From contig CALUWI010000012.1 in the NCBI GenBank assembly GCA_944324465.1, positions 1 to 64,000 on the forward strand: DNA of 64,000 nucleotides. Direction: 5' to 3'. The position numbers and the translations under genes were made by a program. Below, one piece after another: positions 50,003 to 58,793 of the stretch. Within the stretch, counting starts at the first letter, position 1; every line of letters starts with the position of its first letter. The notes beneath the pieces are model-generated. The model did no database searches. It saw nothing but the letters and a program-made list of their open reading frames with translations, and was not told the DNA's origin. The stretch comes from an uncultured Mucispirillum sp. GTDB taxonomy: Bacteria; Chrysiogenota; Deferribacteres; Deferribacterales; Mucispirillaceae.

Positions 50003-50146
50003 ACCTTGTCAAAAAATAATTTTTTTTATAAATATTTTCCCAGCCTGATAATATTTTTTCAGATACTTTTTTATTACTTTTCTAAATTAATACACTTTTC
50101 ATGTTTTTTCGGACTTTTTATACCTTTATGGACTTTTTTGCATTTA

Positions 50147-50174
50147 TTGGACAGGGTTATTTTCTATATATGCT
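50147..50174 (+). promoter_or_regulatory. Putative promoter of the tail-fibre cassette
   Basis: TTGGAC (50147-50152), a 16-nt spacer and TATGCT (50169-50174), before the GGAGG of the first gene. Moderate match only. Confidence 0.3.
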
Positions 50175-50200
50175 AATATCTGCTATCAACGGAGGATAAT

Positions 50201-50923
50201 ATGAAACTATATTCATGGAATACACAAAAAATATCTATAAATGACAATGGAAAAATCAAAACAATATCACCATTCTTCTTAGTAAGTGATGATAAAGCAC
50301 ATCTTTTTGATAGCAGCAGTTATACCGATTTAGGTGCTGTTTTCAATATTGATGAATTAAAAATAATATCATCAAATATAGAAATGGTTACAAATGATAT
50401 AAAAGATATTATAGCTGAAAAAACTGATAATCTAATAAATATGCAGGAAACTATTGAAAATTCATTAAACCAGCTTGCAGCAGTTCAAAATACTATGCAG
50501 GAAATAGAAAACTTAAAAAATGAATATGTAAAAATCATTAATAAGGCAGAAGAATATAAAAAATCTATACAAAAAGAAACTGAAAAATATATGGAACAGC
50601 TTTCCCTGTTTCAAAACGATACTGATAATAAAATAAAAGAGGCAGAATATTCTTTTAATAAAGCTCAAGTAAATATATCTGACCTTATGGAGCAGGCAGA
50701 AAACAAGGTGGCAGCAAAATATATGGCTGTCCGCTTAAATATGGATAATATTTATAATAAATACATTAATGCAGTATCTGCTAAAACAGATGAAAGTAAA
50801 AAATATGCAGAAATAAGTAAGAAATGGGCATGCAGTCCTGTAAATGTGCCTGTAGAAAATGGCAGCTATTCTGCACTTCATTATGCTGCATTACTTAAAA
50901 ATCAGGGAGCAGCAAATGAGTAA
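50201..50923 (+). CDS. Phage-type tail-fibre protein, proximal coiled-coil part
   Basis: 240 residues. The N-terminal ~55 residues are beta-rich. A long coiled coil (~58-205, mostly Lys, Glu, Gln and Asn) follows. The end has W-A-C-S-P-V-N-V-P-V-E-N-G-S-Y-S-A-L-H-Y-A, close to the S-A-x-H-Y-A motif found near the end of many phage tail-fibre modules. It probably forms a trimeric rod carrying the receptor-binding protein of the next gene. The ATG is preceded by GGAGG. The next gene starts within its last codons (8-bp overlap). No other phage structural genes are nearby. Confidence 0.7.
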   Translation: MKLYSWNTQKISINDNGKIKTISPFFLVSDDKAHLFDSSSYTDLGAVFNIDELKIISSNIEMVTNDIKDIIAEKTDNLINMQETIENSLNQLAAVQNTMQEIENLKNEYVKIINKAEEYKKSIQKETEKYMEQLSLFQNDTDNKIKEAEYSFNKAQVNISDLMEQAENKVAAKYMAVRLNMDNIYNKYINAVSAKTDESKKYAEISKKWACSPVNVPVENGSYSALHYAALLKNQGAANE

Positions 50924-53390
50924 TACATCTTATATATCAGTAGAAGTATCAAAAAACACATCTGAAAACAGAACAACTCCTATATATGTGCAGGAAAAAG
51001 GAAGTCTTTCTCTTGATAATATATTATCTGAAAAGCCTGCTGATTTTAATGGGCAGATAGATATATCATGGCTTACGGATGCACTTAATCAAAAAGCATG
51101 TGAAATAAAATATGCTCCATGGGACGCTTTATATATGCCACAGGGTTTATGGGTATCTTCTGCTTACGGCAGCAATACTATTATTGCAGTATCAGCTGAT
51201 GGTAAAATATGCTTATCCCATGATTACGGCACAAATTGGGAAGAAAAACAGATAAACGATAACTTAACTGCTGCTTCATACGGTAATGGTGTATTTATAC
51301 TGCTTTCTAATACTGGAAAATGCTTTAAAAGCACAGATAAAGGTATATCCTGGGAAGAAAGCATAATAGATGAAGATAATTTTTCATGTATTACATATAA
51401 CAATAATAAATTTATTGCAGGTACATCTTCAGGCAGAATATATGTTTCAGAAGACTATGGGCAAAACTGGCAAAAGGTGTGCGAATATAATAATATGCAG
51501 ATTTCAAAAATAACATATTCATCATCAAACATTATAATGGCAGTTGCAGTTTCTGGCAGTCCCCTTTCAATCTACAGTATAGATGACGGCTCATCATGGA
51601 ATGAAATAGAGATGCCCTCATCATCATGGATATCATTAACTTATGGCAAAGATAGATTTATGGCTTGTGCTTATGATGGGGACATAAGGCTTGCTTACTG
51701 TCTTGAAAAGGATATTATTAGCAGCAATCCTGTGTGGAAAAATACAGCTTTAAGCTATAATGAACCATGGAAAGATATATGTTATGGAGCAAATGTATAT
51801 ACTCTTGTCTCATCAAATGGTGTTACTCTTGCAAGCAGTGACGGTATAAGGTGGATAAAAACACCATGTCCTTATGGAGCATGGAATAATATTTTAAGAA
51901 CAGATTATTTTTTTATGACATTTTCAGCAGATAATGAGGCAAATCACTTAAATGCAATCCGTTCATCAAATGGCGGACTTGCTGGAATTATGTTTGCAAC
52001 TTTAAATGAAATTATACATGATGAAAATGTAGATAAAGCAGTTAACCCGCAGACTTTAAAAGATTATCTTGCATACAGAACTGGCAAAAATACCTCTCAA
52101 TATCCAGTTTACAGTGATGATTTACTTATTGAATGCACTTCACTTGATACAAGACAGATTAAAATTACAAATATAGACAGCAAAAGCACGATTAATGATT
52201 ATAACGATATTAAAACACCAGGAATATATATAATAGAAAAAACTCTTAATAACGGTCCTGATTTACAAACAGGATATATGCTTGTACAGGCAGAAAATAA
52301 TAAAATACATCAATTTTTAAGCCCTGATTATTTATTTACATCAGGTTATATGCGCCAGTTCAGTAATAACTTATGGAGCAGCTGGCAGAAAAAAATGATA
52401 AAACAGGAAAATATAGAAAGCCTTGATTTATCTAATAATAATATAACAGTATCATCTAATTCATCATATTCTGATATAACAAACATTATAGCAGAAGAAA
52501 ATGGAAGTATCAAAAAAATAAGTAAAAATGAAGTAGATGAAGAAATAAATAATAAAGTAAAAGATGCATTCAACCTTATGGCTGGAAATAATGTTTACTG
52601 GAACAAAACAGCAGATTATAAATTAGGTGCTGCCGTTTTAGGAAGTGATAATGCACTGTACTACTGCATAAAAGCAAATGGCTCAGCAAGTCCTCAAAAC
52701 CCAGTGTCCGCATCTTCATACTGGCTTAAAATTATAAACAGTAATGGAAAAATCAATGCAGATAATTTAAGTGTGTCATTAGGTACACTTGCTCTGCTTA
52801 ATAATATTGCACTTACTAATAATGCCATAACTGGAATACTGCCCATAAGTAAAGGAGGCACAGGAAGAACAAATGGAATGTCAAATGGTATTGCAGATAA
52901 TACTATAATTACAGAAAATAACTGGCAGACTGCAGAGCAAAGAGGGTTAGGTGTTTTATACTGGCAGACTACAGATATTGCCAGCAAAAAGCTGCCTTAT
53001 ACTGCAGGAGCAATGATAAGAAATTATTTTGTAAGCAACCTTAAAAGTGCTTTAGCTTTTGATTTAGGTAATGCTTATGTATCTATTTTTGATTTTAAGC
53101 AAAATAGGTGGAAACAAATTGCATTTAATGATGATGTTGTAAATAAAATGCCAAAAGTATCAAAAAATAATGGAATAGGATATTTACAGCAAATTGCAGG
53201 ACAAGGAGTTCAAGTAACTTACAGGCTTCCTTCTGATGGCACTTATTTCTACTTTCTTACCTGCACAAATGACTATAATAACTATAATGCTGTAGATAAT
53301 AAGGCAGGAATTGCAGAAGGTGGAAGTGAAATAATTTCTGCATCTATGAATAAAAAAACTTTTGGGGGATTTATATGGAGAATACAGTAG
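50916..53390 (+). CDS. Tail-fibre receptor-binding protein with Asp-box propeller and pyocin-type knob
   Basis: 824 residues from ATG 50916 (GGGAG before it). Residues ~65-330 contain repeated Asp-box-like turns (S-x-D-x-G-x-x-W, e.g. S-H-D-Y-G-T-N-W and S-E-D-Y-G-Q-N-W), indicating a beta-propeller. Residues ~428-492 read like a pyocin/tail-fibre knob (D-I-K-T-P-G-I-Y ... L-W-S-S-W-Q-K). A carbohydrate-binding-like stretch lies near 555-600, and I-L-P-I-S-K-G-G-T-G-R-T-N, typical of tail fibres, near 640. It probably recognises surface glycans. No signal peptide, as expected for a phage-type protein. The next gene overlaps its end. Confidence 0.75.
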   Translation: MSNTSYISVEVSKNTSENRTTPIYVQEKGSLSLDNILSEKPADFNGQIDISWLTDALNQKACEIKYAPWDALYMPQGLWVSSAYGSNTIIAVSADGKICLSHDYGTNWEEKQINDNLTAASYGNGVFILLSNTGKCFKSTDKGISWEESIIDEDNFSCITYNNNKFIAGTSSGRIYVSEDYGQNWQKVCEYNNMQISKITYSSSNIIMAVAVSGSPLSIYSIDDGSSWNEIEMPSSSWISLTYGKDRFMACAYDGDIRLAYCLEKDIISSNPVWKNTALSYNEPWKDICYGANVYTLVSSNGVTLASSDGIRWIKTPCPYGAWNNILRTDYFFMTFSADNEANHLNAIRSSNGGLAGIMFATLNEIIHDENVDKAVNPQTLKDYLAYRTGKNTSQYPVYSDDLLIECTSLDTRQIKITNIDSKSTINDYNDIKTPGIYIIEKTLNNGPDLQTGYMLVQAENNKIHQFLSPDYLFTSGYMRQFSNNLWSSWQKKMIKQENIESLDLSNNNITVSSNSSYSDITNIIAEENGSIKKISKNEVDEEINNKVKDAFNLMAGNNVYWNKTADYKLGAAVLGSDNALYYCIKANGSASPQNPVSASSYWLKIINSNGKINADNLSVSLGTLALLNNIALTNNAITGILPISKGGTGRTNGMSNGIADNTIITENNWQTAEQRGLGVLYWQTTDIASKKLPYTAGAMIRNYFVSNLKSALAFDLGNAYVSIFDFKQNRWKQIAFNDDVVNKMPKVSKNNGIGYLQQIAGQGVQVTYRLPSDGTYFYFLTCTNDYNNYNAVDNKAGIAEGGSEIISASMNKKTFGGFIWRIQ

Positions 53391-53824
53391 AATATAATGA
53401 AAATAAAAAATTATTTTTAAACTCTATTTCAAATATTAAGAAAAAAAATGACGGCTCTTTTATTGTTAATTATAACAATATGCCTTACCATATTTCTAAC
53501 AGTGATGAAATGCTGGAAAAATATAACTGGCTCACTGAATATATAGAAAAATATCCAGAACAGGCAGAAGATTATATAGAAAAACAATATATACCTTCTG
53601 CAGAAGAAAAAGTTGAACATATAAGAAATAAACGAAACAGCCTTTTAAATGAAGCCGATATTATACTTATGAAATATCAGGAACAGGTATCCCTTAATAT
53701 AATACAGGTAAACGATGAATATTATAATGCACTTTTACAGTATAAGCAAAACTTAAGAGATATTACAAAGCAAATTGATTTTCCTGAAAATATAATATGG
53801 CCTTTAATGCCAGAATATATTTAA
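53375..53824 (+). CDS. Tail-fibre assembly chaperone-like protein
   Basis: 149 residues. The C-terminal half has R-N-K-R-N-S-L-L-N-E-A-D, then Y-N-A-L-L-Q-Y-K-Q-N-L-R-D-I-T and I-I-W-P-L-M-P-E. This is the pattern of caudoviral tail-fibre assembly proteins encoded directly after the fibre gene. The N-terminal part is unlike them and may bind this particular fibre. It overlaps the fibre gene by 16 bp. It ends exactly where the convergent glycosyltransferase gene ends. Confidence 0.75.
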   Translation: MENTVEYNENKKLFLNSISNIKKKNDGSFIVNYNNMPYHISNSDEMLEKYNWLTEYIEKYPEQAEDYIEKQYIPSAEEKVEHIRNKRNSLLNEADIILMKYQEQVSLNIIQVNDEYYNALLQYKQNLRDITKQIDFPENIIWPLMPEYI

Positions 53825-57822: not shown

Positions 57823-58764
57823 TTACTTTTCATCACCACTGTATTTTTCTACAAAATAAAGCGGTCTGTTTTTTACTTCATCAAAAATTCTGCCTAAATA
57901 TTCACCTATTACACCAAGTGATAAAAGCTGAATACCTCCTAAAAATATTATAATTGATAATAATGTAGGATAACCACGAACAGGTTCTCCAAAAAGTAAA
58001 GTTTTTAAAACTAAAAAAACAATATAAATAAACCCAACAGCTGCAACAATTATTCCTAAAAATGAGCTTAATCTAAGTGGAAATGTAGAAAAAGATGTAA
58101 GACCTTCTATTGCAAGGTTAAAAAGATTAAAATAATTCCATTTAGATTTACCTGCAAATCTTTTAACAGGTTCATACATAAATTCTTTTTTATTAAAGCC
58201 TATTAATGCAAACAACCCTTTAGTATATCTTCTCTGTTCTTTATACTGTTTTAATGCATCCACTGCTCTGCGGCTTAAAAGTCTAAAATCACTTGTATTT
58301 TTTAAAATATCAACACGAGTTAATGACTGTAATGCTTTATAATATATCTTTGTTCCTAATCTTTTGAAAAAACTTTCATCATTTCTTGATTTTCTTCTTC
58401 CATATACATCATCATAGCCTTCTTCATAATAAGTAAGCATTTCTGGAATGTATTCTGGGGGAATTTGCAAATCTGCATCTAAAATAACAACAACATCACC
58501 TTTCACATAATCAAACCCTGCAGCCATTGCTATTTCTTTACCGTAGTTTCTAGCTAAATTCACATACTGCACATGGTCATCTTTTGCATTTAAATCACGC
58601 AATATCTCTAAAGTTTTATCTTTTGAACCGTCATTTATTATAAGTATTTCATAATCATACTTTTCAAGTTTTGATAAAACATTACTTACTCTCTTATAAA
58701 GTTCATGTAAACATTCTTCTTCATTATAAGCAGGAATTAGAGCAGATATAAGCTGTTTTTTCAT
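57823..58764 (-). CDS. gtrB: GtrB-like bactoprenol glycosyltransferase
   Basis: 313 residues. The GT-A domain starts A-L-I-P-A-Y-N-E-E, D-G-S-K-D-K-T lies in the nucleotide-binding part, and I-L-D-A-D-L-Q carries the DXD metal site. Two C-terminal membrane spans (~230-255, ~270-293) are followed by V-I-G-E-Y-L-G-R-I. It loads sugar from UDP-sugar onto undecaprenyl phosphate. First of five glycosylation genes on this strand; the others follow with short gaps. Related to DPMS/PglB-like enzymes but with the GtrB C-terminus. Confidence 0.92.
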   Translation of the reverse strand: MKKQLISALIPAYNEEECLHELYKRVSNVLSKLEKYDYEILIINDGSKDKTLEILRDLNAKDDHVQYVNLARNYGKEIAMAAGFDYVKGDVVVILDADLQIPPEYIPEMLTYYEEGYDDVYGRRKSRNDESFFKRLGTKIYYKALQSLTRVDILKNTSDFRLLSRRAVDALKQYKEQRRYTKGLFALIGFNKKEFMYEPVKRFAGKSKWNYFNLFNLAIEGLTSFSTFPLRLSSFLGIIVAAVGFIYIVFLVLKTLLFGEPVRGYPTLLSIIIFLGGIQLLSLGVIGEYLGRIFDEVKNRPLYFVEKYSGDEK

Positions 58765-58793
58765 AAATAAACTATCCTCCTTTATAAAAATGT

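Follow-up and report, generated by a model that had tools for sequence, protein, structure and literature searches.

Related phage-derived particles

Only a small number of gene transfer agents (GTAs) have been characterised, most of them from Alphaproteobacteria, and a newly found one is not easily distinguished from a broken prophage. RcGTA and its relatives (Rhodogtaviriformidae, Alphaproteobacteria) have scattered loci, the fibre and lysis genes lying apart from the head-tail cluster, and the RcGTA tail is siphovirus-like. PBSX of Bacillus subtilis is encoded by a contiguous prophage-like cluster with a contractile tail, unlike the Mucispirillum loci described below. BhGTA/VSH-1 (Brachygtaviriformidae, Brachyspira) likely has a genome dispersed over several loci, with endolysin and TerL in host-specific clades, and the definition of a GTA, or viriform, has six features (PMC9662315). 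The lytic short-tailed Escherichia phage SU10 (Kuravirus) has a long fibre made of proximal gp12 and distal gp13, seated on the adaptor (PMC9509320); its gene order is terminase, portal, scaffold, capsid, Ig protein, adaptor, proximal fibre, distal fibre.

The genes described here probably include, in a three-gene fibre cassette, the long-tail-fibre module of a dispersed phage-derived Mucispirillum particle, predicted from its genes and most likely a gene transfer agent. The system resembles RcGTA in being phage-derived, vertically inherited and scattered over several loci, but even its head and neck genes are split and it belongs to a new phylum; the tail type also differs. With BhGTA/VSH-1 it shares a gut bacterium as host and dispersed loci, but the ancestral phage is presumed to be different. 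Like R-type pyocins and other tailocins it has a fibre with chaperone and swappable tips, but no contractile tail could be assigned to it, whereas a terminase and a capsid do. With PBSX it shares the type, a headed phage-like particle packaging host DNA, which is predicted here from the genes.

The fibre cassette

The window (the whole stretch of 64,000 nucleotides that was analysed, from contig C12 of genome G000) contains the following features, all on one strand:

50111..50153, + strand: tandem repeat array, a probable activator-binding array (GGAC at 50111, ATAC at 50120, GGAC at 50130, a weak box at ~50140, GGACA at 50149)
50174..50179, + strand: -10-like element TAATAT, 20 bp past GGACA, with the same geometry as in the lysis promoter
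50201..50923, + strand: gene 1, 240 aa, putative proximal long-tail-fibre protein, with a conserved N-terminal ~30 aa and then a long coiled coil
50916..53390, + strand: gene 2, 824 aa, putative distal fibre or receptor-binding protein with an Asp-box beta-propeller
52866..53390, + strand: exchangeable tip of gene 2, about residues 651-824, beyond the ISKGGTG motif
53375..53824, + strand: gene 3, 149 aa, tail-fibre assembly chaperone, co-varying with tip type

A sequence-only reading had described three overlapping genes for a coiled-coil stem, a receptor-binding protein and a fibre chaperone, and this holds: the coordinates (50201-53824) are right, successive genes overlap by 8 and 16 bases, and the reading frames are free of frameshifts and stops. 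The conserved start of gene 2 is at 50916, the longer start in the ORF list (50859) not being the conserved one. Residues 50-211 of gene 1 are one long helix. The Asp-box propeller proposed for gene 2 is borne out by its Asp-box/BNR repeats (PF15899 and sortilin PF15902, both over cut-off) and by an AlphaFold2 model in which an all-beta propeller is confidently predicted for about residues 69-340. The model is unreliable except for this propeller and one later block; in a PDB search, matches to gene 2 were limited to sortilin propellers. A pyocin-knob feature, also proposed, finds no support in Pfam or PHROG. Gene 3 matches PF16778 at 4.9e-12 (over cut-off) and phrog_4912 at 6e-15. As that reading had it, no capsid, baseplate or integrase was noticed in the window's ORF list. 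The arrangement recurs in relatives, and is therefore not a chance one.

The roles of genes 1 and 2 are suggested by the SU10 gene order and by the seating of its long fibre on the adaptor; gene 1, which has no detectable match to SU10 gp12, would be the proximal long-tail-fibre protein by analogy with it. Profiles of SU10 gp12, gp13, gp17 and gp18 (long fibre, nozzle, needle) gave no match to the fibre or to the 715-aa protein described below, and PDB searches with gene 1, the adaptor and the 715-aa protein yielded no useful match. No kin of the conserved parts of gene 1 or gene 2 were found among the phages and viral contigs searched.

A shared promoter array

The repeat array upstream of the cassette is conserved in seven genomes. 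The fibre and lysis upstream regions have in common GGAC-type boxes spaced 9-10 bp apart and a -10 element ~20 bp past the last box, and the array is probably the binding site of a shared activator. The TerS and adaptor loci were discovered through a fibre-box promoter scan of G007, a complete single-contig 2.35-Mb congener genome, probably that of M. schaedleri. With a matrix from fibre promoters only, built when the upstream regions of the fibre and lysis genes had already been set side by side, the G007 lysis promoter ranks first, TerS second and the adaptor 13th of 2246. A matrix trained on other genomes puts the same three G007 sites on top, at 35.4, 31.8 and 30.0, with the next at 13.6; its best score in a simulated genome was 18.2. 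The GACATWACGGACA core is found in 17 of the 278 loci examined, in each case ahead of TerS, the adaptor or the lysis genes; the complete G007 sequence has no other copy.

In the reverse test, the fibre upstream regions of seven genomes fell in the top 1% on at least one score and most in the top 0.3%, the species being related and so not independent tests. With some variation, the array precedes TerS in all eight species for which the stretch was read and precedes the adaptor in most. The fibre promoter fits the array less well than the promoters of the other three loci do, and least well in the window's own genome. As a method, the route from a stray fibre module to its shared promoter may lead to the remaining loci of other such systems.

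Head, neck and lysis loci

The four loci of G007 lie at 0.86, 1.04, 1.92 and 2.17 Mb, with host genes as neighbours:

G007 863,378-866,432: operon of the adaptor, a 715-aa protein and a 111-aa protein
G007 1,043,822-1,049,915: operon of TerS, TerL, portal, a 228-aa protein and capsid, followed by a Big_2 protein
G007 ~1,917,317-1,921,067: fibre cassette
G007 2,173,982-2,175,450: lysis cassette of two spanins, holin and endolysin

In the window's genome they are on contigs C1 (two places), C3 and, for the fibre, C12:

C1:100726-102870: 715-aa protein
C1:162825-164273: TerL
C3:127312-127641: holin

Profile matches at the G007 terminase locus are to PF16677 (5e-14) and phrog_2 TerL (1e-40). The portal and capsid are of the SU10 type (PF23899 at 6e-124 and PF17236 at 4e-40, both over cut-off), the adaptor matches the SU10 model PF24175 at 2e-4, below the Pfam cut-off, and the lysis cassette has matches to holin, endolysin and LysC spanin. 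Portal, capsid and the later genes of the TerS operon were read in G007 only. Putative roles for the 715-aa "nozzle", the 111-aa protein and the 228-aa "scaffold" rest on position. Genes for an ejection protein, a short tail fibre, a needle or an activator were not identified.

The likeness to SU10 thus lies in the family of the portal, the capsid and, weakly, the adaptor; in addition, the SU10 order from TerL through portal, scaffold and capsid to Ig protein resembles that of the G007 operon. There are also differences: the Mucispirillum TerL is closer to the epsilon15 and Pseudomonas phage AF types, and SU10 has one 77-kb genome, whereas here there are ~14-16 kb in four loci. Adjacent loci in G007 are ~180 kb to 0.9 Mb apart, far more than the 77 kb of the whole SU10 genome; depending on the capacity of the head, this spacing may keep the system's own genome from being packaged whole, which is a further feature of GTAs.

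Inheritance across the genus

TerL is single-copy in all ten Mucispirillum genomes and 82-95% identical to the G007 copy, with catalytic motifs intact in all nine full-length copies. The TerL sequences of the genus form a clade of their own, with strong support, apart from viral homologues, and the tree (of this single gene) splits G008, G009 and G010 from G000, G006, G007 and G011, as metH identities do. dN/dS is 0.03-0.11 for TerL and 0.01-0.09 for the holin, with 0.07-0.14 for metH as control. The 715-aa protein is found in nine of the ten genomes; all seven genomes that are at least 90% complete have the stand-alone holin, and all seven have all four loci. A terminase of the sister genus (54%; G003:C25 and G004:C31, loci L186 and L187) stands in another gene order and without the repeat array, and the system is therefore claimed for the genus Mucispirillum only. 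For the 715-aa protein (L192, L193, L195), G008 is 96.8% identical to G009 and 81% to G010, whereas by metH G008 is nearest to G010; the conflict indicates allelic exchange of the 715-aa gene.

Conservation of the cassette and exchange of its tips

Close relatives on two named contigs, one of them from Candidatus M. faecigallinarum, place the window's genome in Mucispirillum (Deferribacterota). Gene 2 has matches in all ten Mucispirillum genomes, those in the low-completeness G013 and G014 being short and of prophage type, and gene 1 is present in nine. In the relatives read, the cassette either adjoins metH or sits between metH-side genes and the same glycosyltransferase, with host genes on both sides; in G007, metH itself is ~40 kb away. 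dN/dS is 0.18-0.42 for gene 1; over the conserved stretch of gene 2 it is 0.16-0.26. A prophage remnant, which had been one proposal, is rejected on these grounds, the genes being intact, in the same place and under purifying selection across the genus. No complete prophage lies beside the cassette in the relatives read, copies read whole have no disabling frameshift, and adjacent phage genes, decay or a varying insertion place were not found in relatives.

In gene 2, conservation extends over the first 650 residues and is lost in the last ~170. The change is abrupt: past ISKGGTG, identity to the nearest relative drops from 96% to 14-21%, and it drops likewise against other relatives. Comparison of fibre alleles, which had been recommended, shows that tips differ after ISKGGTG and that tip types pair with chaperone types across relatives. 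Some of the cassette's tips, and chaperones, match those of the genus' prophage fibres, at up to 60-68%. Judged by these alignments, the receptor-binding tip and its chaperone are swapped as one block and exchanged with prophage fibres. To this extent the idea of a fibre-switching reserve was sound, though not in the rest of what it proposed.

Contractile tails and prophages of the genus

The cassette had also been suggested to be part of a tailocin encoded elsewhere. The rest of the particle is indeed encoded elsewhere, but it is headed and terminase-driven, and so no tailocin, as genes for terminase, portal and major capsid are among those of the co-regulated loci; tail genes standing without head or terminase were not what was found. 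A search of the genus for contractile-tail genes, as had been advised, gave Baseplate_J matches that belong to prophage-like loci of some genomes only, with none in G007 or G008, and a contractile-tail partner was rejected. G007 has no match to Baseplate_J or PhageMin_Tail, as might mark the tube, the sheath or tape measure, and the baseplate of a tailocin; the sheath model PF04984 also missed a Mu-like prophage and is uninformative.

This Mu-like prophage, with Baseplate_J, is on contig C3 of the window's genome at ~55.5-84 kb (L007, L008), and there are similar baseplate matches in several congeners. It has its own fibre (82456-83532), ending in WRIQ as the window's tip does, and its own chaperone (58431-58769). 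A matrix scan found no array site in it.

A candidate gene transfer agent

Three of the six features of a GTA were found here, and the system is for this reason called a candidate gene transfer agent: particle proteins of tailed-phage origin (TerS, TerL, portal, capsid, holin, endolysin, fibre chaperone); full endogenisation, as often over several loci (four, in G007 and in the window's genome); and mostly vertical inheritance with co-diversification (TerL in ten of ten genomes, with a tree split as in metH, for a single gene). That the system works like a GTA is well supported by its anatomy; that it is one awaits particles, packaging and transfer being predictions from the genes. We consider it likely that Mucispirillum has an independently domesticated GTA with a short-tailed SU10-like ancestor, at least four co-regulated loci and tips refreshed from prophage fibres. 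It would be the first GTA of the Deferribacterota and of any genus of mucus-dwelling gut commensals.

In such a system, an activator would bind the GGAC-type repeats and switch on all four loci in some cells. Heads would assemble and TerL would package pieces of host chromosome, the adaptor and the 715-aa protein forming a short tail. Gene 1 would dock the fibre onto the adaptor, the tip of gene 2 would bind a surface receptor of related cells, and the producer cell would be burst by holin, endolysin and spanins. Exchange of tip and chaperone with prophages could let the particle track changing receptors.

In the open literature (subscription papers and preprints being outside its scope), no paper was found with both "Mucispirillum" and "gene transfer agent", nor one joining "SU10" and "gene transfer agent". 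In the M. schaedleri genome paper the only word that begins with "phage" is in a reference title on T6SS, and the genus is absent from the main text of a 2026 gut packaging study. If the proposal is right, a co-regulated, fully dispersed GTA of short-tailed ancestry in Deferribacterota would be one more case with an origin of its own. It would also be relevant to the extensive horizontal gene transfer that has been reported in M. schaedleri (PMC5285517). How do particles keep pace with changing receptors? Fibre-tip swaps make this testable.

Alternative explanations

The same dispersed headed particle might be a PBSX-like killing device, binding competitors through its fibre and harming them, with packaged host DNA incidental: a weapon needs diverse tips whose chaperones vary in step, as they do here, and PBSX packages host fragments of 13.4 kbp (PMC12946183). 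We think this improbable: the genes are scattered over four loci, in contrast to the contiguous PBSX prophage, no gene for a toxin or for immunity was noticed next to them, and TerL is as conserved as metH, which argues that packaging itself is under selection.

Conservation of the promoter array across species, intact catalytic motifs and purifying selection on every module tell also against a reading in which one ancestral prophage left scattered remains that no longer work together, with the fibre cassette retained for some unrelated purpose, for instance adhesion. This is quite unlikely, even though G008 has the 715-aa protein, lysis cassette and fibre genes on one contig within ~77 kb.

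It is more doubtful still that the cassette is a reserve from which resident prophages draw fibres, for example the Mu-like one in the window's genome. The matches of tips and chaperones to the genus' prophage fibres would fit, as would a baseplate-bearing prophage on C3, but that prophage has its own fibre and chaperone without the array, and G007 and G008 keep the cassette yet have no Baseplate_J match. Least probable is PblA/PblB-like export, in which lysis would free the fibre proteins to act as adhesins and no particle would carry DNA. A pair of conserved stand-alone modules under a common promoter, and a fibre with no obvious signal peptide, would suit it, but the same promoter also drives the terminase/portal/capsid and adaptor operons, and both it and a T6SS link were dropped on discovery of the terminase operon.

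Additional observations

Two large lipoprotein-like genes, with Big_2 domains in G007, stand beside the cassette in relatives (L029:3354-9278, L030:2622-8550, L031-L034); the window is without them, gene 3 abutting the glycosyltransferase (53824/53825). G007 has a 127-bp copy of the fibre promoter region, 98% identical, at C1:1933108-1933234, ~12 kb from the cassette and with no fibre genes behind it. A CI-like S24 repressor gene (G000:C12:66518-67192; L011:2518-3192) is ~13 kb from the cassette, has an orthologue near the G007 cassette, and is a possible candidate regulator. In G013 (C28, L036), Cas1/Cas2-like genes, a large Cas9-like ORF and repeat-like ORFs lie directly beside a prophage tail end.
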